Part shown: positions 297 through 21,602 of the stretch, one piece after another
Layout: every line of letters starts with the position of its first letter
Position numbering within the stretch: the stretch's first letter is position 1
Source: Rhizobium sp.
GTDB lineage: Bacteria > Pseudomonadota > Alphaproteobacteria > Rhizobiales > Rhizobiaceae
Reading direction: 5' to 3'
DNA: 64,000 nucleotides
NCBI GenBank assembly: GCA_029865885.1
Contig: JARXAK010000231.1
Span: forward strand, 1 to 64,000
Made by a program: the position numbers and the translations under genes
The notes under the pieces: generated by a model
The model's input: only the letters and a program-made list of their open reading frames with translations
Databases searched by the model: none
Told to the model about the DNA's origin: nothing

Positions 297-1294
297 CTGA
301 CGCCAGCATCGCCATGAGCGCGCCTATTGTGAGCAAGTCGGATCGCAAGCTTCATCTGCAAAAGCTTTACCTGCGCTACGCAAAGTATCACGAGGTCAGC
401 GAGCACCTTGATGGCATGATCAGAAATGCCAAAGCCTGCCGGGAAGGTGGCGGCTTCAAGGAACGTGCACTTTTCGTAATTGGCGAGTCGAATACCGGCA
501 AATCGCGCATGCTGGAGGAGCTGTTCCGAGAGAAAGCGAACTTTCAGCCGTACCAAGATGAGGAGGGCGAATGGGTACGCCCTATGATCAGTATTGAAGC
601 GCCGTCGCCCTGCAGTTCCAGGGAACTTGCACTCAAAGTCCTCAAGGAACTTGGCGCTGTCGTTCGTAACAAACGAATTAGCAATCCGGAGCTGTACGAT
701 TTCCTGAAAGATCAGTTGCGTGATCAGAGGGTGGAGTATCTGCATATCGATGAAATGCAGGACACGGTTCTCCACAACACGGAGTTCGCCATCAAGTCCG
801 TACAGAGCGATGTGAAGAGCCTCCTTCAGATCAAGAACTGGCCCCTGCATGCCATCTTCTCCGGCGTGACCGATCTGGAAAAATTCATCCAGGGAGGCGA
901 TGGCCAGATCGGCAACCGCTCAAACACTATTCGCCTCGAACTCTTGAAGGACCCGAGGGACCTGAGGGCGGCCGAACAGATTTTGTCCAACATCGTCGTA
1001 AAACACGCAGGCCTTGAACCCGGCTGGGCTGAAAAGGACGAGCTTCCCGCGCGCCTCATACTGGCGGGGCAAGGACGCTTCGGCACGATCTGCGACGACG
1101 TCAAGAAAGCCTGCTTTGCCGCGATTGACGCTGATCGCAGCAAGGTCACGCTGTCTGATTTTGAAGCCGTTTACCAGGTCCGCAAGGCATGCCTGCGTGA
1201 GGACAATCCCTTCCGTGGGAATAAATGGCGGGACATCGTGCCCCCAAATGCCCTCGCCGACCTTCGCAAACCTGTTGCCAAACGAAAGAAGTGA
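293..1294 (+). CDS. tniB: TniB/TnsC-like transposition AAA ATPase
   Basis: Walker A-like GESNTGKSRMLEE, Walker B-like VEYLHIDEMQD; 333 aa; follows a TniA-like tail and precedes a TniQ-like ORF. Confidence 0.8.
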   Translation: MTDASIAMSAPIVSKSDRKLHLQKLYLRYAKYHEVSEHLDGMIRNAKACREGGGFKERALFVIGESNTGKSRMLEELFREKANFQPYQDEEGEWVRPMISIEAPSPCSSRELALKVLKELGAVVRNKRISNPELYDFLKDQLRDQRVEYLHIDEMQDTVLHNTEFAIKSVQSDVKSLLQIKNWPLHAIFSGVTDLEKFIQGGDGQIGNRSNTIRLELLKDPRDLRAAEQILSNIVVKHAGLEPGWAEKDELPARLILAGQGRFGTICDDVKKACFAAIDADRSKVTLSDFEAVYQVRKACLREDNPFRGNKWRDIVPPNALADLRKPVAKRKK

Positions 1295-1296
1295 CG

Positions 1297-3111
1297 ATGC
1301 TCGGTTCAAAGCTCGCCCGCCAGATCGCTCTCCACGACGATGAGTGCCAGGTAATGTTTGCCTCTAGGCTGGCAAAGGCCAATGGCTACTGCGACTTGGA
1401 CGAGTTCTGCTGGATGACGAACGTCCCTGTGTCGCGGCTGCAAACCATGGATGAGGAGACCGCAGACCTGTTAGCGACTTGGTCTGGTGTAACCGCTGGC
1501 CGTTTCCAAAGGTTTGCACTGACCGGTCGCAACCTGACGACATTTGGGGACGCAACTGTCCGGCGGTCACAGTTGGAAATGGCTGGCCTCCGTGTCTGCC
1601 GCCATTGTCTGCTGAATGACTTGGGCACCGGTCAAGGACGCACTGTGACACGCCCTTATGCAAGAGCCACATGGCGTTGGAGGGTGATTGGCACATGCCC
1701 AGAACACGGCTGTGACCTAGAGGCCATCCCCGCTTGCGATCTCACCGCATGGATCGCGCGACGCGGCGATGCACTCGCGGCAAATCTGCCGGAAGTTCGC
1801 AAACCCGAACCCGTCGATGTGTATTTTGCTGGCCGGGTCATCGGTGGTGCAAAAACATCGGAGTTTCTGGACGAACTTCCGGCATATGTGGCTGCCGAGT
1901 TCTGCACTGTCATCGGCCATATCAATGAATTTGCACAGACGACTGGTGTTCGAAGTCGCGTTCCAGACGGCTTCAAGAACACATCATGCCGCCGAGAGGG
2001 GTATAGGATTGCCAGAGAGGGCCGAGCCTCGATTCTGTCTTTTCTTTCCACTCATGTCAGCACCGTAGTTGAAGACGTCTCGGATTTCACAGATGTCTAC
2101 GGTGCCGCACGTCGCTGGTTGCGGAAGTTCGTCACGGACGCGGATTACCGCGCTGTTGTGGAGCTGTTCCAGCATCACGCCGAACAGCATATTCCGATGG
2201 CAGTCGGCGACGTTTTCCTCACTGAGGTAAAGGAACGCCTGGTCCACACGATTCAGTCAGCAGCCGTCGAGTATCAGATCACACCTGCTCGGGTGAAAAG
2301 TGTCGCAGAGAAGCAGGGTTTTACGACGACCAATCCGGACGGGAGTGTACGCGCCTCTCGCGTATTTCCGCGCGGTGCCTTGCACGAATATCTTGTTCTT
2401 GAGAGCCAGCTTCTCACGACCACCGAGGCAGCTAATACCTTGGGGTGCAGTTGGCATTTTCTCGACATTCTCCTCACTCAGGAACACTTGCCGTACCACT
2501 TGAACTCGGAGGAGTGCGCGCGGGTGTATCGCCGTATCAAGCGTGCCAGCGTAGACAATCTGATCGCCTGGCTCACCCTGAGAAAGGAACAGATGAGCAA
2601 CGATGGGCTAGTCTCTATCCCTAAGGCAACGGCCATTTGTCACTGCAAAACGCCCGAAATCATTTCTCTGATTTTTACCGGCACCCTGAAAAGGGTTTCA
2701 TGGTCTGGCACGGAACTGCAGCTCAGGAATCTGCTGGTCGATCCAGTTGAAGTGCTCCAGCATGTCGCTCTTGAAGGCCCCGGAGCCTTCATGGATGTAG
2801 CAGCCTTGGAGAAGGCGTTGCGCACCACGACAGCGACCGTAGAGGAGCTTATCAAGCTTCAGTTTCTGCAAGTGCAGATGCGACCTCATCCTCGAACGCG
2901 GGTCCATCAACGTTTCGTCCATCCGCTCGACGTCGAGGGGTTTGTGTCGAAACATGTCTCATTGAGCGCCATGGCACGCGAGAACGGCAGGCAGATCGCA
3001 AGTTTGAAAAAGGCATTAGATAAAGAAGGCATCAAGCCGATCTTTGAACCTACCGGTAAGATTGCCAGGTTCTATCGCCGATCTGATGTGCGGCGTCTTG
3101 GATTGGCGTGA
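1297..3111 (+). CDS. tniQ: TniQ/TnsD-like transposition target-selection protein (604 aa)
   Basis: N-terminal zinc-finger-like CRHCLLNDLG...RATWRWRVIGTCPEHGCDLE typical of TniQ; start chosen 2 nt after the tniB stop; long C-terminal region with repeated HTH-like segments. Confidence 0.75.
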   Translation: MLGSKLARQIALHDDECQVMFASRLAKANGYCDLDEFCWMTNVPVSRLQTMDEETADLLATWSGVTAGRFQRFALTGRNLTTFGDATVRRSQLEMAGLRVCRHCLLNDLGTGQGRTVTRPYARATWRWRVIGTCPEHGCDLEAIPACDLTAWIARRGDALAANLPEVRKPEPVDVYFAGRVIGGAKTSEFLDELPAYVAAEFCTVIGHINEFAQTTGVRSRVPDGFKNTSCRREGYRIAREGRASILSFLSTHVSTVVEDVSDFTDVYGAARRWLRKFVTDADYRAVVELFQHHAEQHIPMAVGDVFLTEVKERLVHTIQSAAVEYQITPARVKSVAEKQGFTTTNPDGSVRASRVFPRGALHEYLVLESQLLTTTEAANTLGCSWHFLDILLTQEHLPYHLNSEECARVYRRIKRASVDNLIAWLTLRKEQMSNDGLVSIPKATAICHCKTPEIISLIFTGTLKRVSWSGTELQLRNLLVDPVEVLQHVALEGPGAFMDVAALEKALRTTTATVEELIKLQFLQVQMRPHPRTRVHQRFVHPLDVEGFVSKHVSLSAMARENGRQIASLKKALDKEGIKPIFEPTGKIARFYRRSDVRRLGLA

Positions 3112-3134
3112 CACACATTTGATACACAGCACAC

Positions 3135-3160
3135 AAAACCCGCTAACGCGGGTTTTTCTT
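3135..3160 (+). terminator. Rho-independent terminator after the tni genes
   Basis: AAACCCGC-taac-GCGGGTTT followed by TTTTTC. Confidence 0.7.
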
Positions 3161-3234
3161 TGCCTGTGATGCTATTCCGGCCACCGATAACCGCACTTTC
3201 TGCAACGGACAGGTGAACGATTTCCCTTCGGAAT

Positions 3235-3256
3235 CCCAGCCAACCTGGGCTTTTTT
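3235..3256 (+). terminator. Second hairpin with T-run
   Basis: CCCAG-ccaac-CTGGG-C-TTTTTT. Confidence 0.5.
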
Positions 3257-3326
3257 AATGACCAGGGACAAACCTTAGGGGCCGCACCAAAGCACCACCG
3301 AATTCGAAGGGTTTTTAGATTTGGAA

Positions 3327-3401
3327 TGGTGCTGCTAGAGAGATTTGAACTCTCGGCCTCTCCCTTACCAAGGGAGTGCTCTACCCCTGAGCTATAGCAG
3401 C
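3327..3401 (-). tRNA. tRNA-Thr (GGT)
   Basis: Reverse complement gctgctaTAGCTCAGGGGTAGAGCActcccttGGTaagggagaggccgagaGTTCAAATCtctctagcagcACCA: complete cloverleaf, anticodon GGT. Confidence 0.93.
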
Positions 3402-3555
3402 ATCTGGCGGGCGACGTCTTTGGTCTGCCCGGAACGAGGCGCCTATTGCCACAGAGTTTTGGGGAGCGCAAGCCGTAAAGCGATTGTGCGGCCAAGTTTT
3501 ATGAGGAGGGCGAAGGGGACTTTTCGATTTTTGTTCGATCGGTTATCACCCGCTG

Positions 3556-3870
3556 ATGACGAATGACCCGGAAAACAAGGGCGAAGCGGACGACGGCGCC
3601 ATCGAGGCCGCCCGGCTTGCCGATCGTGGAAAACGTGGACTGTCCGATGCCGAAGAACGGCGGCGGGAGCGGGCTGCGGCCAAGCTGCGCGAAAATCTCG
3701 CGCGCCGAAAGCTGCAGGCGCGGGCCCGCCGGGCCGGAGAAGCGGAAGATGGTGTCGGTTTGCCGGCCGCGCATTCGCCGCCATCTGCGTTGGGTTTGGA
3801 AGGCGAGGCCGTAAAACTCTCAGCGGACGAAGGCAGCCCTGCCGCAAATTCGTCCAAACCCGGTGATTAA
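3556..3870 (+). CDS. Small charged conserved hypothetical protein upstream of murA
   Basis: 104-aa Glu/Arg/Ala-rich ORF; position only. Confidence 0.45.
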   Translation: MTNDPENKGEADDGAIEAARLADRGKRGLSDAEERRRERAAAKLRENLARRKLQARARRAGEAEDGVGLPAAHSPPSALGLEGEAVKLSADEGSPAANSSKPGD

Positions 3871-3996
3871 CCGAGCGTTGCGGCTTCAATTGAACCGCTC
3901 GTGGTTTTCGTCTAAAGAGCCAGCCTCGCCGGATTGGCTACCCCTCACACCTTCTTCAGGAAAGGCGGGCACTTCTTGCCCGTATCGCAGGCTCTC

Positions 3997-5289
3997 ATGG
4001 ATCGCATCAGGATTGTTGGTGGCAATGCGTTGAACGGGATCATCCCGATCTCGGGCGCCAAAAACGCAGCGCTGCCCCTGATGATCGCCTCGCTGCTGAC
4101 GTCGGACACGCTGACGCTGGAAAACGTGCCGCATCTCGCAGACGTCGAAGGTCTGATCCGCATTCTCGGCAATCATGGCGTCGATATCGCCGTCAACGGC
4201 CGCCGCGAACATCAGGACGGTTCCTATTCGCGGACCATTCATTTCACCTGCCGCACGGTTGCCGATACGACGGCACCCTATGAGCTCGTCTCGAAGATGC
4301 GCGCCAGCTTCTGGGTCATTGGCCCGCTGCTCGCCCGCGAAGGCCAGGCCCGCGTTTCGCTGCCCGGTGGCTGCGCCATCGGCACGCGCCCGGTCGACCT
4401 CTTCATCGAAGGCCTCGCAGCACTTGGCGCCGAGATGGAAATCGACGGCGGTTACATCAATGCCAAGGCCCCGAAGGGCGGCCTGATTGGCGCGCGCTAT
4501 ACCTTCCCCAAGGTCTCCGTCGGCGCGACCCATGTCATGCTGATGGCAGCCTCGCTTGCCCGCGGCACGACCGTAATCGGCAATGCGGCGCGCGAGCCTG
4601 AAGTCGTCGATCTCGCCAACTGCCTGATCGCCATGGGCGCCAAGATTTCAGGCGCCGGCACCTCGACCATCACCATCGAAGGCGTGACCAGCCTTTCCGG
4701 CGCCCGCCACCGCGTCCTGCCCGACCGCATCGAGACCGGCACCTATGCCATGGCGGTTGCCATGACTGGCGGTGATGTGACTTTGGCCGGCACCGACATG
4801 ACGCTGCTCGATACGGCGGTCGAAGCCATTCGCCGCGCCGGGGCCGAAGTGTCCGCTGTCGAGGGCGGTATCCGCGTCATCGGTCATGGCGATCAAATCC
4901 GCCCGGTGGATATCGTCACCGAACCCTTCCCGGGCTTTCCGACCGACCTGCAGGCGCAGTTCATGGGTCTGATGACCCGCGCCCACGGCGTTTCGCATGT
5001 GACTGAAACGATCTTCGAAAACCGTTTCATGCATGTGCAGGAACTGGCGCGCCTTGGCGCCAAGATCACGCTGTCGGGCCAGACCGCCCGCATCGAGGGC
5101 GTAACGCGCCTGCGCGGCGCGCCTGTGATGGCGACCGATCTGCGCGCCTCGGTCTCGCTGGTCATCGGGGGGCTTGCCGCCGAGGGTGAGACCATGGTGT
5201 CCCGCGTCTATCATCTCGATCGCGGCTTCGAGCGGCTGGAAGAGAAGCTCACCCGTTGTGGCGCGATTATCGAGCGCATCAGCGGCTGA
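3997..5289 (+). CDS. murA: UDP-N-acetylglucosamine 1-carboxyvinyltransferase
   Basis: [29 protein letters not shown] and [10 protein letters not shown] motifs of the MurA family; start trimmed from the ORF-track start. Confidence 0.95.
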
Positions 5290-7235: not shown

Positions 7236-7709
7236 ATGGCAGCGGGCGACTTCCGGCTCTCAGATGTCGTGTTGGACGAGACCATCGGGCGCTCGACCCC
7301 CGATGTTGAGCATGAGCGGGCGGTCGCCATCTTCGATCTCATCGAGGAAAACACCTTCGAGCCCGCAGGCCATCCCGGTGGCCCCTACAAGCTGTTCCTG
7401 TCTCTGATGGATCGCAAGCTCGTCTTCTCGATCAAGACGGAGGCCGGCGATGACGTCGCCGTCCACATCCTGTCTCTGACGCCGCTGCAGCGGATCATCA
7501 AGGACTACTTCATGATCTGCGAAAGCTATTATGAAGCGATCCGCTCCTCGACCCCCTCGCAGATCGAGGCGATCGACATGGGGCGTCGCGGCATCCACAA
7601 TGACGGTTCCCAGACGCTGATGGACAGGCTCTCGGGCAAGATCAAGATCGATTTCGACACCGCCCGTCGTCTGTTCACCTTGGTCTGTGTGCTCTATTGG
7701 CGGGGCTAG
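7236..7709 (+). CDS. UPF0262 family protein
   Basis: [32 protein letters not shown]; follows hisD. Confidence 0.8.
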
Positions 7710-8176
7710 ACGGAATGGAGAAGGGCGGGACAGACAGCCGCCGTTCGCCTCGACCGGGGGCGATCCTCTTCATGTGTGGCCAGAACGTCATTCGAAGCCC
7801 CATGGCCGAGGCGATTGCAAAGCAGGGACTTCCAGCCGGCACCTGGGTCGCCTCAGCCGGCGTGAAGAAAGGCGAGCGCGATCCCTTCGTCGATGTGGTG
7901 CTGGACGAAGTCGGCCTATCGCTTGGCCGCCGCCAGCCCCAGACGCTGGAAGACATGGCCGATGACTTCTTCGATCTCGTCGTGACCCTGACGCCAGAGG
8001 CCCATCACGCTGCACTCGAACTGACCCGGCATTCCGCCGTCGAGGTCGAATACTGGCCGATGCCGGACCCGACGGTCGAGACCGGCAGCCGCGAGCAGCG
8101 GCTTTCCGCCTATCGCGACGTGCGGGATCGTTTGACGAAGTTGATCCGTGAAAGACTGGTGCTGGTCCCGGATTAG
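7697..8176 (+). CDS. Low-molecular-weight phosphotyrosine phosphatase-like protein
   Basis: [19 protein letters not shown] (CX5RS P-loop variant) near the N-terminus. Confidence 0.8.
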
Positions 8177-9622: not shown

Positions 9623-9698
9623 GCCCGGATAGCTCAGTTGGTAGAGCAGCGGATTGAAAATCCGCGTGTCGGTGGTTCAAATCCGCCTCCGGGCACCA
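9623..9698 (+). tRNA. tRNA-Phe (GAA)
   Basis: gcccggaTAGCTCAGTTGGTAGAGCAgcggattGAAaatccgcgtgtcggtgGTTCAAATCcgcctccgggcACCA. Confidence 0.96.
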
Positions 9699-9703
9699 TT
9701 TTT
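9654..9703. repeat. attL: 50-bp direct repeat formed by the 3' part of tRNA-Phe
   Basis: ttgaaaatccgcgtgtcggtggttcaaatccgcctccgggcaccattttt, identical to 21553-21602. Confidence 0.93.
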
Positions 9704-9803: not shown

Positions 9804-11273
9804 CTAACGCCCCCAACGTTGCTGCATGTCTGTCGGATACGTCATCGAAAAGTATCTATCTTTCGCTGGGTCAAACGGTAGGAAAACATGCGTGGGAAGT
9901 TCCCAATCTGCGTTTCCGTTAGCAACTTGCTGAGCAAACTGTAAAATCTGCCACTTAGCGAGCGCTCGATACCATGCCGTATTCCGAGCTGTGATATCCG
10001 CATGCCATGCATTTGCGACTACATTCATTTCATTGGTGGCTTTCTGTAACGCTTCTTCGCGTTCTGAGGCCGTGAGGTTCTCTACGATGTATCCGATGAC
10101 ACCATAGTCTAGTTCGGAAACTGCCATCCAAGTCAGATGGTTGTCTTGCTTTGGCGCATCGAAATTCCAATCCATCCAATGCTGGTAGACCAGTGACCAT
10201 AACTGCTTGCGTTCTTCTAAATCGGCAACTCTTGCAAATGCCGCGATACAATCGGTTGTGGCCTCTCGGCATTCGCCGTGAGACGCGTTGAGCTCAATCG
10301 CTTCAATGCAGGCTGATTTTGCCTCAATAGAGGCGCCATTCAGACTGTATCCCAAGGCTGCCTGCAGCACTTCTGTCCGAACGGGATAGCGGTTAAGGGC
10401 TCTCATCCATTTCCGCCACTCCCCTGCATCCTGCTGAACATCTTTGAATAGTGCTGCAAGAGCTTCCAACGTTTCTTCCGAAAGCGTTTCATTTCGAGGG
10501 TGGTTGAATGCAAGACTCTGAACCAGGGCAAATCTGCCACGGTTCGATTTCAGAGTCCGACCAATCCTGCCGATCTGATGCGAAGTCATAGCGCCCGCTA
10601 CGCAAATTATAAGCAAAATTGAACCGAACTGGTCGACCGCCAAGCCGAGTGCATATTCCCCCTTGTTTGTGGTGCACAAACAGGTGGTCGCCTCGGCTAG
10701 GTAGTGGTCAGGGTAAACAGAGGAGGCAACCGTCCTCCATAGAGACTCAATTGTGGGCCAATCAGCGTCTTTGTCGGCCTGAACAAAAGCATCAACAGCT
10801 TCTCGTTCCCAAATAGGTTCGGCCTTCCCTCCAGAACTGAACTCGGAGTGTGTTGTTCCTATAAGCGCTGCCATACTCGCGAACAGATTGTCACTGAGAA
10901 AGGCAACTGGAATACGCTCCCAGATTGGCTTATCAAATAAAAACGCGCGCGAAACGCTGAGAATTGCTGCAAGCTTCGGCAAATCAGGTTTTTGCTGCTT
11001 GCATGCCTTGAGCTCGTTCAGCAACCATGCCAATCGATCCACCCAGATTGCTTTATCATTTGCTGTCAACGGCTGTCTGGAATGGCGATAGCTGTAGATT
11101 GCCCCAAGGTCCAACTGATAAGCTTCCGAAAGGGCCTGTCGCTGGCTATCCCCTTCAAGCACAAATGGGTTATTCAAGGACGATAGTACTTTGATGATAT
11201 TTTTCGGTCCTACGGGATCCGGAACCGTCTCAGAGGTTGCTATCAACTCACCCCAGTCTAGTTGTGTGGACAT
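9804..11273 (-). CDS. Uncharacterised all-helical (HEAT/ARM-like?) protein, second gene of a two-gene cargo operon
   Basis: 489 aa from MSTQLDWGELIATSE; start overlaps the upstream stop (TAATG). No family recognised. Confidence 0.75.
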   Translation of the reverse strand: MSTQLDWGELIATSETVPDPVGPKNIIKVLSSLNNPFVLEGDSQRQALSEAYQLDLGAIYSYRHSRQPLTANDKAIWVDRLAWLLNELKACKQQKPDLPKLAAILSVSRAFLFDKPIWERIPVAFLSDNLFASMAALIGTTHSEFSSGGKAEPIWEREAVDAFVQADKDADWPTIESLWRTVASSVYPDHYLAEATTCLCTTNKGEYALGLAVDQFGSILLIICVAGAMTSHQIGRIGRTLKSNRGRFALVQSLAFNHPRNETLSEETLEALAALFKDVQQDAGEWRKWMRALNRYPVRTEVLQAALGYSLNGASIEAKSACIEAIELNASHGECREATTDCIAAFARVADLEERKQLWSLVYQHWMDWNFDAPKQDNHLTWMAVSELDYGVIGYIVENLTASEREEALQKATNEMNVVANAWHADITARNTAWYRALAKWQILQFAQQVANGNADWELPTHVFLPFDPAKDRYFSMTYPTDMQQRWGR

Positions 11274-12853
11274 TACGGCTGCTTCCAGACGAGATTTGTT
11301 GGCTGATCGACGGCATCCCATAGTTCCAGAAAGGCATCGTGGATCAGTTGCCCGTTATCGGCTTCCTGTAAAATGTGATGTGCTTTCCCAAGCCCGTTGA
11401 CCGAAGTTCCCAAGGACCACGCTCTCGCGCCGTTTTCGAGATATGGAAATATGATAAAGCGGTCATGGAAGTCCCACCCGTTATTTCCGTCGCTCGAACG
11501 AAATTCGATTTTTAAGCCGTGGAAATTGCTCCTTAGGTTCTGCAAGAGGGCCGCATATGTCGCTTTTAATGCCTCTTTCGTGGTTGTTGAGCCTGCGGGC
11601 GTTTTTAGTGCTGTAATAGCGCGCATTTCGGAGCCAAAGTTCTTGTTGTAAAACAATGTGTCAATTACATCTTGCGGCGCAAGAAACGGATCCCACAGCC
11701 ACACTCCTTTGAATCCGAATTGGTCGATAAGACCCCTGACGTCGCTTAAGGCTCTGCTTCGCTCCGTCGCGGCACCATGTTGCTTGGGATTGTATTGGAC
11801 AAAGCGCCTTTGTTCAGTCAGCCTCGTTCGTTCCTCTTTGTAAATTCGGTTGCGCACTGGACGACGGATATCTGATGCGCTCGTATCACCAACGATAGAC
11901 TGGGTGTCATGCCCGACCAGTTGGACCCTCATATCTTGGAGATTTGAATCATAGGCGTTCGATTGAAAAACACGGGGCTCATGCCGCACCAAGCCCATAC
12001 CGAAGCTGACGGTATTTATAAATGCGGTTTCGTCAGTTGCGCTTAGGAGGATATTATTCTGAGGGTCCCATATATGGCCGCGAAATGTCCCTATGCCTGC
12101 GTCAGGAGCTATGATCGCCTCACCGTCTGTAATGTTCATGGAGCCAAAACCCAATATGGTTTCGTCGTAAACCACCTCAACGGTCGCATTCAAATTTCGA
12201 GGAGTTGCTTTCGGATGCCAAGCGACTTCCACTGCGTACTCGCCGCCTCTCCGTCCAAATCGACTTTGAATTACCTCAACGGGGAGCTGTATCGTAACCC
12301 CTCCTAGCCTGTCGGCCAGCTTTCCAATGTGTAGAGGTATAGCAGTCGATATTTTTTCGGACAGGTCGAGCAAAGATGTCGATTTGCTCAGCAAGGGCGC
12401 CAAGCCCGTTTTCAACGGATCGATGAGTTCAAATACGAGGCTTCCATTGCCGAAATTGTTTTTCAGAACTCTATTATACGGAATGTCGTTTAGGGAATTT
12501 GCTGGTACAAACTGTCGTTGTAGCGGCGTGAGTTTCCCCACCCAAACTGGCAGAGAGGCTGGTAGCCATGTCCCCTCCGACTTTAAGACGTTTAGGCTTT
12601 CCAAGAGCTTGGGGATTGAGAGCATTTGTCGATGTAAACCGAAGCTCCACCCCTTTAGCGAATTGAGTGCGATGCGCTTGGTGAGGAAACCTGTCTCAAG
12701 CACGCTCAATCCGTCATCCCCGGCGATTGCAAGGGTGAAGAGATTTATCGGAGTTCTTGAATTTGGAGGATAGCCAAGAATTTCGAGTAGTTCGAACTGG
12801 GTGAAAAAACCGACGATGCCGTCTTGCAATAGTGTTTCGAGTTCTGGCCACAT
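11273..12853 (-). CDS. Protein with PLD-like C-terminal region, resembling VPA1262-family proteins
   Basis: GVWLWDPFLAPQDVIDTLFYN ... WDFHDRFIIFPYLENGARAWSLGTSVNGLGKAHHILQ: HDR-type phospholipase-D-like half-site. VPA1262 similarity is from memory and unverified. Confidence 0.65.
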   Translation of the reverse strand: MWPELETLLQDGIVGFFTQFELLEILGYPPNSRTPINLFTLAIAGDDGLSVLETGFLTKRIALNSLKGWSFGLHRQMLSIPKLLESLNVLKSEGTWLPASLPVWVGKLTPLQRQFVPANSLNDIPYNRVLKNNFGNGSLVFELIDPLKTGLAPLLSKSTSLLDLSEKISTAIPLHIGKLADRLGGVTIQLPVEVIQSRFGRRGGEYAVEVAWHPKATPRNLNATVEVVYDETILGFGSMNITDGEAIIAPDAGIGTFRGHIWDPQNNILLSATDETAFINTVSFGMGLVRHEPRVFQSNAYDSNLQDMRVQLVGHDTQSIVGDTSASDIRRPVRNRIYKEERTRLTEQRRFVQYNPKQHGAATERSRALSDVRGLIDQFGFKGVWLWDPFLAPQDVIDTLFYNKNFGSEMRAITALKTPAGSTTTKEALKATYAALLQNLRSNFHGLKIEFRSSDGNNGWDFHDRFIIFPYLENGARAWSLGTSVNGLGKAHHILQEADNGQLIHDAFLELWDAVDQPTNLVWKQP

Positions 12854-13286: not shown

Positions 13287-13529
13287 TCATTCGAGTTTGG
13301 ACAGGAGCCTGTCGAGCAGCACCGTCGGATTGCTGCCCATAGCCTTCACCAGCGTCGCAAACTCCAGCACGTCTATCCGCCGTTCCGCGCCTTCGACCTT
13401 GGCCACATAGGATTGCGGTTTGCCGAGCCTGTCGGCCACCTGCTGTTGGGTCAATTGAGCCGCGCGACGTGTCTCCACGAGGAGTTCGACGAGACGCTCG
13501 TACTCGGGTGTGTGGGTGGATTTGGTCAC
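13287..13529 (-). CDS. XRE-family HTH transcriptional regulator
   Basis: LVETRRAAQLTQQQVADRLGKPQSYVAKVEGAERRIDVLEFATLVKAMG. Confidence 0.85.
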   Translation of the reverse strand: MTKSTHTPEYERLVELLVETRRAAQLTQQQVADRLGKPQSYVAKVEGAERRIDVLEFATLVKAMGSNPTVLLDRLLSKLE

Positions 13530-14413: not shown

Positions 14414-14932
14414 ATGGCAACGGAAGCAAGCTTACTCGGCGCGGCGGGTGAACACTTTATCATGTGCGAGCTTTTGCGACGGGGCTACATCGCGGCGCTC
14501 GCACCTCAGGGTGTTCCCAATACCGACATAGTCGTAACAGACCCGACCGGCGATAGGCTTTGCACGATCCAAGTGAAGTCACGTCGAGACATCGGATCCG
14601 ATGGTGGCTGGCATATGAAAGCCAAACACGAAGAGATCGTAGGCGAGCGGCTTTTCTATTGCTTCGTGGACTTCGGTAAATCACCGCAGGACAGGCCTGC
14701 TGTGTTCGTGATGCCGAGCGCGATCTGCGCGAAGGTTCTGGCCGAGTCACATGCGGCGTGGCTTTCAAATCCGGGTAAAGGTGGTCATCAGAGAAAGCAA
14801 ACTCCTATGCGGCGCATGGTGCCGGACTACGAGTCCGCTTTCAGGCCGCTCGCCAATCCCTATCCGAAGGGATGGATGGAGCCATATCGTGATGCATGGC
14901 ATCTACTCGGCCTCGCGAAAGAAGCCGAGTAG
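14414..14932 (+). CDS. PD-(D/E)XK-type nuclease-like protein
   Basis: GAAGEHFIMCELLRRGYIAALAPQGVPNTDIVVTDPTGDRLCTIQVKSRR: E...D...QVK arrangement. Confidence 0.65.
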   Translation: MATEASLLGAAGEHFIMCELLRRGYIAALAPQGVPNTDIVVTDPTGDRLCTIQVKSRRDIGSDGGWHMKAKHEEIVGERLFYCFVDFGKSPQDRPAVFVMPSAICAKVLAESHAAWLSNPGKGGHQRKQTPMRRMVPDYESAFRPLANPYPKGWMEPYRDAWHLLGLAKEAE

Positions 14933-15530: not shown

Positions 15531-17309
15531 CTACGGTAGCGACCACATGGAGCGTCCGGACTTTCCGCGCCGCTTGACGATGTTCATGTCATCAGCCGCA
15601 CGTCTCAGCGTTTCGGGCGTTATCGATCGGGTTGACGCCATTTGGTCCAGCTTGTTCTTCTCCACCGGCCCCTTGGATAAGGTTTCACGCAAGAAGTCCT
15701 TGGCGAAGTCGCGTTCTTCGCTGGGCCTGCCGATCGTGCCAGGTGGTTTTGCGAGAAGATCGTCCTCGCTGAGGTCTGGATCGGCGTCGTGCCATATCAC
15801 AACAGGCGGACGACCCTTTTCCTGGCTGCGCAATTCAAAGACAAGGGTGGGCCCCTTTTCCGAGTAGTTTGCCTTTGCATGTGCAATGGCGCGTTTTGTC
15901 GGGTCATGGGGATGTATGCCCAAGATGAGCCCAGAACGAACCCGCGCCGAGATAGCAATCGAACCGATACCTTGATGCATCGCATTGTCCGCCTTGGCCT
16001 TACGCAAATGTCGTACGATCAGGATAGAGACATCATATTCGCGGGCAATGAGGTCCAGCTCGACCATGAAGCGCATGGTGTCGTTGGCTTTGTTTCCGTC
16101 GGTGTCCGCATCCATGTAGGCGATGATGGGATCAATCACCACCAGCGCGGGCCGATGGGCTTCGATCTCCTGCCGCAACATCATCATGCCGTTGGTATCA
16201 AGGGAAAAGACCTTTTCCTGATAGCGAACCTTCGAGATATCAGCCCCGTTTTCGACGAGCCGGGGTTTCAGTACTCGTGCCGGATCGTCCTCAGCCGACA
16301 GAAACAAGACGCCTCCCTCTTCGATAGTCGTGAGAAAAGGCGGCGGTTTGCCGGTTGTTACAGCCGCCGCCAGTGCAGCGGTGAAGGTCGATTTGCCTTG
16401 CCCCATGTTTCCGTCAAGCACGGTGGTCGCCCCCTTCACAATATAGGGATAAGCAAGGAACTGAACCTCTTGCTCCTCAACATCGGCTAGGCTGCCGAAA
16501 GCGTTTTCGAATCCAGCCTCGTAGTTGCTAACGCTGCGGGCGATGTCCGCAACCTCCTCGTCATCTAGCGGTGGGCTGCATATCACGCGATTCACGGTGG
16601 CGAGCACCCGCTCAAGGGCCGAGCCGCTCAGGCCTTTAAACCTGAAGTACCCCGCGTAGCTCGTGAGCGCGTTGTTGCGGCCGCCCTTGGTAACGCTTCC
16701 AGGCATCTCGAAGCTCGCCGTCCTTGACTGCTTTGGCTTCAAAATATCAAGGAAAGTCGGTGGCAACCTAGCAATCTTCCCAACGTTTCCGAGCTTCATG
16801 TGGTATTGCTTGCCGGAGTGATGCCTGCTGGGCGGAACGACAATATAGCCGCTTTTACCGTCCTTGATGTCGATTCCTTCGAGCCTCATCTTTTTCTTGG
16901 GCAGTGGCCGATCGATCCTAAAGTAGTGATGCGTGCCACGACCGGTCCTCACTGTTGCGGTGTTCGGCAGATTGAGGGTTTCATATGTCTTTCTCCCTTT
17001 TGGGCCATCGACATCGAGCACGAGGATGTTTTCGGGCAGGACCACGCCGAGGTTTGCATTGGGGTGGGATTTCAGGACACGCGTGATCTTCTGTTTCGAG
17101 TCGGTTGCGCTTTTGTGTCCGTTCCGGAATTCGGCAGTGATGGGATGCTTGCCCGGTGATTGGCAACTTGCATTTCCGCATTCACAACGCCCGTTGGCGG
17201 CAATGCCATGTAGGGCGACGATTTTCGCACCCGCATCGATCCATGCACATGCTGCTTCTAATCTTGACGAAGACAAAAGATCCCCGTCGATACGAACTAG
17301 GTTCGGCAT
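15531..17309 (-). CDS. Bifunctional primase/polymerase (prim-pol) plus RepA-like AAA helicase
   Basis: N-terminal prim-pol-like ANLGVVLPENILVLDVDGPKG / RTGRGTHHYFR; Walker A LDGNMGQGKSTFTAALAAA; Walker B ALVVIDPIIAYMD. Confidence 0.85.
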   Translation of the reverse strand: MPNLVRIDGDLLSSSRLEAACAWIDAGAKIVALHGIAANGRCECGNASCQSPGKHPITAEFRNGHKSATDSKQKITRVLKSHPNANLGVVLPENILVLDVDGPKGRKTYETLNLPNTATVRTGRGTHHYFRIDRPLPKKKMRLEGIDIKDGKSGYIVVPPSRHHSGKQYHMKLGNVGKIARLPPTFLDILKPKQSRTASFEMPGSVTKGGRNNALTSYAGYFRFKGLSGSALERVLATVNRVICSPPLDDEEVADIARSVSNYEAGFENAFGSLADVEEQEVQFLAYPYIVKGATTVLDGNMGQGKSTFTAALAAAVTTGKPPPFLTTIEEGGVLFLSAEDDPARVLKPRLVENGADISKVRYQEKVFSLDTNGMMMLRQEIEAHRPALVVIDPIIAYMDADTDGNKANDTMRFMVELDLIAREYDVSILIVRHLRKAKADNAMHQGIGSIAISARVRSGLILGIHPHDPTKRAIAHAKANYSEKGPTLVFELRSQEKGRPPVVIWHDADPDLSEDDLLAKPPGTIGRPSEERDFAKDFLRETLSKGPVEKNKLDQMASTRSITPETLRRAADDMNIVKRRGKSGRSMWSLP

Positions 17310-17722: not shown

Positions 17723-18367
17723 CTAAATGAAGTCAGCAATCTTGCTGTCCAAGGCCTCATGGCGGCCTGTGGTTTCCAGAAATACGCGCCTGACATAGGC
17801 AGGCGTTCGGCCTTCCATAACCTTGAGCTTATTGTCCCAGTTCCCACGGGATAATTTGATATCGGGGAAATGATCACGCACCGCATCAATCGCGATGTAG
17901 ACGATGTAGGATCTTATCTCATTCGTGTGAGCTATTTTCCCAGCGTTCTCGCCATCTATTTCCCGCTTCATCCATTCTGACAGATTTTGCGCCTTTGCCT
18001 TCAGCGCAGACAACTCCGTGAGGAAGCCGCCGGTGATTAGAGGTTTGCAATCGCCGTATTCCTCCCAATGACGAAAATGCGGGTCGTTCTCGCTTCGGAG
18101 TGCATTTTCAAGCCGTTCGATAGGCTTCAAGACGTTGGCGTCAAGCCACTTCACTCTTTGGGTCAAGGTCGCGTCGAAAGGTGCATACCGCTTAAAGCTA
18201 TTGGGAGAGGTGGCAATTCCACTGTGGATTTTCAGACATTCTGTGCGCAAAGAATGCCAGAAATCTGGAAATCGTTCGTCGCTGAGCACGCCAAGGATGT
18301 TGCCAATTTCCTTTCGGCAGACCTCACCGAAGATGTCGCCGCCAGCTCCGTCACCCGATCCGCCCAT
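17723..18367 (-). CDS. Hypothetical protein overlapping the integrase 3' end
   Basis: Open frame with a coherent helical protein (LNSFKRYAPFDATLTQRVKWLDANVLKPIERLENALRS); start uncertain, between 18367 and ~18240. Confidence 0.5.
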   Translation of the reverse strand: MGGSGDGAGGDIFGEVCRKEIGNILGVLSDERFPDFWHSLRTECLKIHSGIATSPNSFKRYAPFDATLTQRVKWLDANVLKPIERLENALRSENDPHFRHWEEYGDCKPLITGGFLTELSALKAKAQNLSEWMKREIDGENAGKIAHTNEIRSYIVYIAIDAVRDHFPDIKLSRGNWDNKLKVMEGRTPAYVRRVFLETTGRHEALDSKIADFI

Positions 18368-19506
18368 GTCTGCAAGGCCTCGCGCTTCTCGTCCAAATAC
18401 GCGTGGCGATTGTAGATCGATGCAACGCCGGAGACTATCCCGGATTTGTGGTTCAAGACGGCTTCGATGATATGCGGCGGGACCTTCAGGATAGCCATGT
18501 TGGTTGCAACGGTGCGGCGGACATCGTGAAAGCGCCAATCCTCTGCCTCCAGCCCGACGAAGGTATCGAGCCGATCCTTAAAGCGACCGAAACCCGAGAT
18601 CGGTGTCTTGCCGGTCGAGGTAAACACGTAGTCGGAGCCGAGGAAGCGCGGGATAGAGCGGAGAATGTCGAGCGCCTGCCGAGACAGCGGGACGATGTGA
18701 GCCGTGCTGTTTTTCGTGCGATCGGCTTTGAGCGTGAATGTCCCACGATGGAGGTCCAGTTCCGACCAGCGCATGGCCGCTATTTCTTGGCGACGCTGCC
18801 CGGTGAGCAAGAGAAGCTTGCCGAACTGTTCGAAGGGATAGCCTTCGGCCTCGCATCCCTTCCAATAGGCGACGATTTCGTCATCGGTCAGAACACGGTC
18901 ACGCGACTCCTCCTTGATCGGCGGCTTAAGACCGACCACGGGCGAGTTTTCGACAATGCCTTGATCGACGCACCAGGAATAGAGCTTCTTGATTGCGGCC
19001 AGCCCACGGTTCGCCCGCGTGCCTTTGCCTCCCTTCGTGCCGATATCGCTGATCAGGCGCTCAAGTTCGCGGGTCACGTCGCCACGCTTGATGGTATTGA
19101 TTGGCATGGGGTGAAGACCGCTCATGCGCTGCAAAATGCTCTCGGTGCCCTTCCAGTCCTTGGTCTGGCGCTGGGCGTATCGCGTGATGAACTGATGTAT
19201 GACATCGCCCAGCGTCAAAACCGGCGGCGCTGGCTCACCGTCGCGCGCTTGGAATGTGCCCAGTTGAATGTCGCGCAGTATCGATTGTGCCCTTTCGCGA
19301 GCATCCTTGAGCGACAGCACCGGGTAGGTCCCCAGCTTGATGCGTCGCAGTATGCCATCAACGCGAGTGGCGAGATACCAGACCTTTCCGCCTGCAGTCG
19401 AGACGCGGATATGCAGGCCGGTGACAAGCTGGTCACGAACCTCGTACCGCTTACCTTGAGCGGGGGAGAGACTATCAAGCAGCTTGGGTGTCAGTTTCTT
19501 TCGCAT
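18232..19506 (-). CDS. int: P4-type tyrosine recombinase/integrase
   Basis: N-terminal DUF4102-like MRKKLTPKLLDSLSPAQGKRYEVRDQLVTGLHIRVS; catalytic TGQRRQEIAAMRWSEL ... FHDVRRTVATNMA ... LNHKSGIVSGVASIYNRH. Confidence 0.93.
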   Translation of the reverse strand: MRKKLTPKLLDSLSPAQGKRYEVRDQLVTGLHIRVSTAGGKVWYLATRVDGILRRIKLGTYPVLSLKDARERAQSILRDIQLGTFQARDGEPAPPVLTLGDVIHQFITRYAQRQTKDWKGTESILQRMSGLHPMPINTIKRGDVTRELERLISDIGTKGGKGTRANRGLAAIKKLYSWCVDQGIVENSPVVGLKPPIKEESRDRVLTDDEIVAYWKGCEAEGYPFEQFGKLLLLTGQRRQEIAAMRWSELDLHRGTFTLKADRTKNSTAHIVPLSRQALDILRSIPRFLGSDYVFTSTGKTPISGFGRFKDRLDTFVGLEAEDWRFHDVRRTVATNMAILKVPPHIIEAVLNHKSGIVSGVASIYNRHAYLDEKREALQTWADRVTELAATSSVRSAERKLATSLACSATNDFQISGILCAQNV

Positions 19507-19621
19507 GACGCAACAATAAGATTGCAACGTCCGCGTGTCAGGGTATGGTTTGGGACGCGCAGAGATATTACGGAGCCAATTTAATGGTCTCCCTAAACTC
19601 GATGGCGCTCAGATTAGCTGG

Positions 19622-20584
19622 CTACGTTGGTGTTTCGGATATGCCGACCACTATCATTCGCTTTATGTCCCCAGCCCGATCTCGAACGAAATAGACCTGC
19701 AAGTAAACGAGATCGCGTTTCATGTTGTCGATCAAAGTTTTTCGTACTGTTGGGAGTATGTCATAGGGGATGCTAAAGTTTAGAGTTTTAGCTCCATTCT
19801 CAATTTTAATTTTTCCCCAGCCGTTATCTTTGTTGAACTGCGTTATATCGCCAAGTATCAGGTTCGGTGTTTTGTCAACAATAGCAGTTTCAATCTCCGA
19901 AGCCATTTGTCGATTAAGGAACAGTACAGGGCGCGTGTCCTTATGAGCGGATGACCTGATTTCTAAGGTGTCGGCACTTGTCCTTAACGCTGTTGCCATC
20001 TCACTTATCAACGGTGCAGACATGGCAATTAATTTCTGGCTCTGACTAGAGCTAATCGAAGATATAGCCGCCTCGTTCTCTGCCAGCCGTTGCTCTCGAT
20101 GGTATTCCGATATCCGACGCTTAACTAATTCTTGAGTGGAATCTGACAAGTTGTCAGCAGACAATCGACCAGCAATCACATCATCTACAAGAACACTGAG
20201 TTTGGAGGTCGAGCTTGCTGTTTGTTGGGCGTCGGACTGCGCTGACACTGTGGATAGTGTTGGCTCATCGATTTTTTCTATCACACGTTCACTAACGTAA
20301 GCGACAAGGTCAGCCAAAGATATGTTGATGAAAGGATTCTCGTCTTGAGACTGGCCTGGGTCCTCCACATTAATATTGAACGAACCCTCAGACTGACTCT
20401 TCAGTTGTATACTGAAGTTTGACTTGTTCGTAATGTTCTTTACGAATTTTCCATGTTGTCGAAATTGCGCCAACTTAACGACGAGACGTGCAGCGGCATA
20501 TTGAAAGCGGGCAGACTCATAGAAGTTCATTCTGTGTGAATCTGCTAACGCTCCCTCGAAATGAAACGTCAAAGTCTCCGACAT
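19622..20584 (-). CDS. Uncharacterised protein (320 aa), DUF7946-like from memory
   Basis: MSETLTFHFEGALADSHRMNFYESARFQYAAARLVVKL; AT-rich relative to flanks. Confidence 0.65.
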   Translation of the reverse strand: MSETLTFHFEGALADSHRMNFYESARFQYAAARLVVKLAQFRQHGKFVKNITNKSNFSIQLKSQSEGSFNINVEDPGQSQDENPFINISLADLVAYVSERVIEKIDEPTLSTVSAQSDAQQTASSTSKLSVLVDDVIAGRLSADNLSDSTQELVKRRISEYHREQRLAENEAAISSISSSQSQKLIAMSAPLISEMATALRTSADTLEIRSSAHKDTRPVLFLNRQMASEIETAIVDKTPNLILGDITQFNKDNGWGKIKIENGAKTLNFSIPYDILPTVRKTLIDNMKRDLVYLQVYFVRDRAGDIKRMIVVGISETPT

Positions 20585-21552: not shown

Positions 21553-21602
21553 TTGAAAATCCGCGTGTCGGTGGTTCAAATCCGCCTCCGGGCACCATTT
21601 TT
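21553..21602. repeat. attR: 50-bp direct repeat (tRNA-Phe 3' fragment)
   Basis: Perfect match to 9654-9703. Confidence 0.93.

Follow-up and report, generated by a model that had tools for sequence, protein, structure and literature searches.

We asked what a pair of tightly coupled genes at the edge of a genomic island in Rhizobium sp. does, and whether it serves the host cell or the element that carries it. The window analysed is a stretch of 64,000 nucleotides (contig JARXAK010000231.1, positions 1 to 64,000). Gene A (11273..12853, minus strand) encodes a 526-aa protein with a VPA1262_N domain (NCBIfam NF040700, 4e-73), and gene B (9804..11273, minus strand, ATG at 11273) a 489-aa partner with a predicted all-helical, solenoid-like fold. 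The TAA stop codon of A and the ATG of B have one base in common, forming a TAATG overlap (11271..11275, minus strand); in these points the sequence agrees with a preliminary description of the locus, which had reported two minus-strand genes of 526 and 489 aa joined in this way. An overlap of a few bases is usual in homologous A/B pairs, the commonest value being 4 when the likeliest start codon is picked. Both genes have a GC content of 0.50, and the values are 0.52 for the island and ∼0.60 outside it. An XRE-type HTH regulator (13287..13529, minus strand; Pfam HTH_3, 4e-7) is encoded upstream of the operon, and a 71-codon reading frame (13204-12989, minus strand) lies upstream of A with a gap of ∼135 bases.

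The operon is part of an 11.9-kb island inserted at a tRNA-Phe gene (9623-9698). The island is flanked by a perfect 50-bp direct repeat, the left copy of which (attL, 9654..9703, plus strand) covers the 3' end of the tRNA gene, and the right copy of which (attR) occupies 21553..21602 (plus strand). The operon adjoins attL, the position from which it had earlier been taken for cargo of an integrated element. The island also encodes a tyrosine integrase (18232..19527, minus strand; Pfam Phage_integrase 6e-20, Arm-DNA-bind_3 2e-12) and a Prim-Pol primase/AAA_25 replication protein (15531..17309, minus strand; Prim-Pol 8e-27, AAA_25 6e-23, PriCT_1 1e-11), and a Pfam scan of seven island proteins returned no phage structural or conjugation protein. 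Congeners keep the sequence left of the island up to the end of the tRNA gene and not past it. The left border is firm because this conservation stops at the tRNA end, and the repeat is the basis for the right border; no clean empty site was obtained among the congeners, whose match ends at the same point. The sequence right of attR (21603 onwards) is not found beside tRNA-Phe in congeners; this part, beyond the island, may belong to another element or be a variable region. Two other island proteins deserve mention: a 320-aa protein (19622-20584, minus strand) has a sub-threshold match to DUF7946/DUF7947, and a 172-aa protein (14414-14932, plus strand), for which we found no Pfam or PADLOC match, contains an IQVKSR segment that by eye resembles a PD-(D/E)XK nuclease or a resolvase.

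Gene A belongs to a named family. It matches the VPA1262_N_dom model (NF040700) with 246.8 bits over residues 55-512, threefold above the cut-off of 80 bits. The full-length VPA1262_fam model (NF040699, ∼1,026 positions) aligns only with residues 372-489, and its 18.5 bits fall below the cut-off of 325. Pfam and PHROGs contain no match to A, and a sequence search of solved structures returned none. No named system in PADLOC 2.0.0 matches A or B significantly; the A protein of the window touches only the candidate PDC-S05, and weakly so (0.013, 12.7 bits, last 66 aligned residues), as do 37 of 70 A proteins (best value 1e-5). Matches of other A proteins to ZorD, Cas12u3, CARF2, KwaB and DpdC were judged to be due to chance, each involving 1-3 of the 70.

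The AlphaFold model of A, calculated from 70 homologues (pLDDT 91.8), consists of a β-rich N-terminal domain and a C-terminal domain with the PLD fold that had been proposed from sequence. The latter spans approximately residues 350-526 (11273..11806, minus strand; borders estimated from secondary structure, Foldseek and conservation). Foldseek returned the nucleases Zucchini (PDB ID 4gem, probability 1.00, E 1.2e-3) and NucT (PDB ID 6ehi, 0.99, E 6e-3), and a search of a viral structure library returned a poxvirus envelope protein (probability 1.00), which we take to be a member of the PLD family. E-values for A range from ∼1e-3 to 1e-2 with target-normalised TM-scores of ∼0.5; they are modest because only ∼180-200 of the 526 positions take part. 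The search table lists no aligned residues; the motif and the succession of strands and helices place the match in the C-terminal part. Matches to GH2 glycosidases and arrestins had poor r.m.s.d. values and were dropped as evidence of family. The 325 N-terminal residues (11879-12853, minus strand) have no credible structural match. They carry a polar set of their own that is invariant or nearly so (N37, LKNNFxxGS at 130-138, K148, D181, G184 and Q189xP191; the invariant polar residues named are N37, K131, N132/N133, K148, D181, G184 and Q189), and which looks like a possible second functional site, with no matching fold or family.

Three motifs define the putative active site. The LWDPF motif (residues 386-390; 11684..11698, minus strand) contains the invariant W387 and D388, the FHDRF motif (residues 462-466; 11456..11470, minus strand) resembles an HxK half-site with Arg in place of Lys, and GTSVN (residues 482-486; 11396..11410, minus strand) is the counterpart of GSxN in PLD enzymes. 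The segment FHDRFIIF...AWSLGTSVNGLGKAHH, which had been likened to one HKD/HDR half-site, is indeed present, and A carries one PLD motif per chain. Nine residues do not vary among the 70 aligned type I A proteins, type I being the A+B form seen in the window: W387, D388, H463, D464, R465, G482, S484, N486 and H492. Since FHDRF and LWDP, either being sufficient, served as patterns in the homologue search, the invariance of these two motifs is in part built into the search; neither pattern contained S484, N486 or H492. Chance is not a good explanation of the FHDRF segment, given the VPA1262_N_dom match at 4e-73 and the identity of H463, R465, S484, N486 and H492 in all aligned proteins. The site reads HDRFxxFP...GTSxN and does not fit the canonical HxK(x4)D(x6)GSxN: the His and GTSxN are kept, Lys is replaced by Arg and Asp by Pro. 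At position 470, which corresponds to the HKD Asp, 67 of the 70 type I proteins have Pro and the remaining 3 Ile. We regard A as having a divergent PLD site because the type I proteins lack this terminal Asp, the loss of which might mean that catalysis is lost or altered.

The substitution at position 470 in all 70 type I proteins, together with the separate invariant polar set of the N-terminal domain, gives weight to a serious rival of an active enzyme, namely that the PLD-like domain is dead or only binds nucleic acid or membrane, and that either B or the conserved N-terminal domain of A is the effector of what would still be a defence system. We consider this unlikely. The 70 proteins differ from one another at two thirds of all positions, yet none departs from the site residues His, Arg, Ser and Asn or from H492 and D388; a dead site would usually have drifted. 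Furthermore, the complete HxRxxxxD is retained in the A proteins of a related architecture (type II, see below; HDRFIAVD...GSSLNS), in their small PLD neighbors and in solitary proteins of ∼250 aa. An Arg in place of the Lys is also found in BrxL-HKD of BREX, the activity of which is thought to be kept (PMC12839542). On the strength of these relatives and of the BrxL-HKD precedent, we hold A to be probably a divergent but active PLD enzyme.

Gene B had been described as all-helical with no recognizable motif, and both parts of this description stand: the AlphaFold model (65 homologues, pLDDT 94.5) is all α, and the protein has zero matches in Pfam, NCBIfam, PHROGs and PADLOC. The best structural matches are ARM/HEAT solenoids (β-catenin, importin) with an E-value of 0.01 and a TM-score of ∼0.25. 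The match is weak and silent on function; it lends credence to the solenoid class but not to a particular family. Sequence matches of B to solved structures comprised designed helical bundles and chance hits only, and the Pfam matches of B family members were scattered and were put down to chance. The mean pairwise identity of B is 18%, compared with 34% for A; the higher variability of B is as expected for a sensor or partner under arms-race pressure.

We next consider whether A and B are inherited together. A single-sequence query of genome and viral contigs found nothing, and an alignment query was needed: an alignment of nine A proteins located 80 genome loci and 5 viral-contig loci. B homologues were found by iterated profile search, and loci were de-duplicated before counting. 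B lies directly downstream of A in 79 of 84 other loci and is interrupted or split in three more, and is thus present in 82; 5 further loci ended at a contig edge and were left out of the 84. B is missing from two loci, L115 and L116, the latter having a 604-aa gene in its place. Among seven A-bearing plasmids, a homologue of B was found just downstream in six. The distance matrices of A and B correlate strongly across 63 loci (Mantel r = 0.897; none of 2000 permutations was as high, the highest reaching 0.13), a correlation that is partly due to shared species descent. On a Bradyrhizobium plasmid (L003, 15675-16739), an IS630-type element, ISRj1, sits between A and B, and should break translational coupling there.

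According to record titles, the hosts of A/B include Pseudomonadota, Bacteroidota, Bacillota, Campylobacterota, Acidobacteriota, Bdellovibrionota, Myxococcota and Thermodesulfobacteriota, with further bins labelled Chloroflexota and Melainabacteria; overall, the pair is spread over some eight bacterial phyla or more. The tree of A is patchy and agrees only loosely with taxonomy (11 phylum changes and 22 class changes), several of the cross-phylum hosts being metagenome bins in which mis-binning is possible. Near-identical A proteins occur in Bordetella, a betaproteobacterium, and Onishia, a gammaproteobacterium, and a melainabacterium shares a closely related one with Sideroxydans. Within the genus, a VPA1262_N protein is encoded in only 2 of 36 genomes, that of the window and one other (G018). 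The two families were found to co-occur as the preliminary description had anticipated, being adjacent in 79 of 84 loci, carried on mobile elements and flanked by defence genes; homologues are not mostly single genes outside mobile elements. A and B form a real, conserved and horizontally moving two-gene unit. Rhizobium sp. R634 has two copies of the operon (L052 and L053), separated by ∼280 kb on a single contig and equal in score and length; the second may be a duplication or an assembly effect.

To define the genomic context, we compared the nearest long open reading frame on either side of A/B in relatives (123 proteins) with PADLOC models at a threshold of 1e-10. The neighbors matched 257 models, compared with 11 for 123 control reading frames, which were taken at fixed positions in 12 other genomes and were not genome-matched to the neighbors. 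The figure of 257 counts models and not proteins, since one protein can match many overlapping models; the 25 models listed among the neighbor matches derive from about ten different proteins. Represented are ThsB (Thoeris), HamA (Hachiman), NucC and phospholipase effectors (CBASS), LmuA (Lamassu), PD-T4-6 and several reverse transcriptases (DRT). On an R. etli plasmid the operon lies beside a CBASS cyclase and an S-4TM effector, on an Aliarcobacter plasmid near a type I restriction system and a reverse transcriptase, and on an Agrobacterium plasmid between restriction endonucleases. The conserved operon is thus enriched beside known defence genes, and a defence function is well supported by context. 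The pair could alternatively serve the mobile element itself, in replication, excision or competition between elements, and not host immunity. The location of the pair, in the window an integrase- and primase-bearing island and in other genomes plasmids or viral contigs, would agree with such a role, but the pair occurs with many unrelated elements and on chromosomes, and its neighbors are enriched for defence families and not for one type of element gene; we regard this alternative as quite improbable. Competition between elements overlaps with defence, and sequence alone cannot separate the two.

In an addiction module that stabilizes the island, A would be a toxic nuclease, B its neutralizer and any effect on phage secondary. 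Two coupled genes on an integrated element, on plasmids and on islands, B accompanying A almost always, are what such a toxin-antitoxin pair would look like, yet B is of the same size as A, which is unusual for an antitoxin, and A is the first of the two genes. VPA1262 has both parts on one chain, an arrangement that suits regulation over differential decay of an antitoxin, and the strong enrichment of defence genes among the neighbors also argues against an addiction module, although defence islands hold toxin-antitoxin pairs too. We find this explanation doubtful, with little more than an outside chance of being correct.

Our preferred reading is that A and B are an undescribed two-gene anti-phage system, in which a PLD-fold nuclease would be the effector and a solenoid protein the sensor or regulator. 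We hold with good confidence that the operon acts in defence or against mobile elements, and consider it likely that the PLD domain of A is the catalytic effector, and equally so that B is a regulator or sensor. The joint reading we favor somewhat less firmly, its standing being close to that of its parts because the three claims go together. In this proposed system, A would be a phosphodiesterase by virtue of its C-terminal PLD fold, and most likely a nuclease with no activity as long as the cell is healthy. One-half-site PLD nucleases such as NucT and Zucchini act as dimers, and for this reason A is probably a homodimer; where a related locus also encodes a small PLD protein, the other half-site may come from that protein. 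The B solenoid would bind A, keep it inactive or position it, and respond to an infection cue, with the stop/start coupling holding A and B at a fixed ratio. Activated A would then cleave nucleic acid, either that of the invader or the cell's own. If this is correct, a widespread two-gene immune system is added, one which tools based on Pfam, NCBIfam, PHROGs and PADLOC miss because B has no model in these libraries.

Comparison with known proteins places the pair outside every named system tested. VPA1262 from V. parahaemolyticus (NF040699, ∼1,026 aa) shares with A an N-terminal half of the same family (NF040700, profile-profile probability 95%), has ∼500 residues in the place of B and is encoded on an integrase-bearing island, VPaI-6, which has direct repeats (PMC1464126). 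It differs from A+B in being one fused chain, the C-terminal half of which has no detectable homology to B. PDC-S05, a PADLOC candidate for single-gene phage defence (∼300 aa) that is mentioned once in each of two survey papers, has an HDR...G-x-S segment like that of A and matches the solitary PLD-like relatives at 1e-13 to 1e-30; in contrast to A+B, it is a small single gene with neither the N-terminal VPA1262 domain nor B. NucT (H. pylori) and Zucchini share with A the fold of the C-terminal domain and one half-site per chain, but their motif is HxK(x4)D; in A it is HxR(x4)P, and A also possesses a large N-terminal domain and a partner of its own. In BREX and BREX-related systems, the BrxL-HKD and HKD-helicase effectors likewise use a PLD/HKD domain as a defence nuclease, but are joined to AAA/helicase proteins in multi-gene systems, whereas A has no ATPase (PMC12839542). 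Among PLD proteins paired with prokaryotic Argonautes, a PLD-family protein also acts with a partner in immunity; there the partner is an Argonaute, whereas B is helical with no family match (PMC11442185). By title, the open-licence literature on VPA1262 comprises two papers on Vibrio genomic variation, the main text of DefensePredictor names no such system under the terms searched, and the PADLOC model NsnC, which type II A proteins touch, was not traced in open-licence literature. The A+B pair is undescribed as a system in the open-licence papers and databases searched, and a description elsewhere is possible. It probably works like known effector/partner defence modules with PLD nucleases.

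The A core is found in four architectures. Type I is A+B. Type II consists of A, a small PLD protein (213-254 aa) and a large gene of 639-683 aa, and is present at L031 and L032, in Burkholderia glumae (L127) and in Klebsiella variicola (L129). Type IIb has A and a ∼600-aa partner but no small PLD protein (G018, of the same genus as the window, and Rhizobium tumorigenes, L149), and type III is a single chain of ∼1,100 aa, VPA1262 proper. In profile-profile comparisons the A cores are homologous (probability 99.5% for type I with type II, 95.2% with type III). Homology of B to the large type II partner or to the C-terminal half of VPA1262 found no support, with probabilities below 3%; from composition and place, our guess is that the type II and III partners are also helical. 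We tentatively suggest, with the balance slightly against it, that these loci form a superfamily of immune systems built from a VPA1262_N core with a divergent HDR-type PLD site and differing large partners. The partner (the B solenoid, the small PLD protein with a large one, another large protein or the fused half) would then, on an equally tentative footing, set what is sensed. With several natural architectures and defined site residues (H463, R465, N486 and the Asp-to-Pro change), how one PLD effector works under different partners becomes a testable question. In G018 (contig C353, L028), a type IIb locus at 621-4113, with an A protein of 570 aa and a 608-aa partner, is present in place of type I. 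On an Azospirillum plasmid (L148, ∼7473-8160), the small PLD gene of a type II locus is split by a frameshift, with the HDR part in the other frame.
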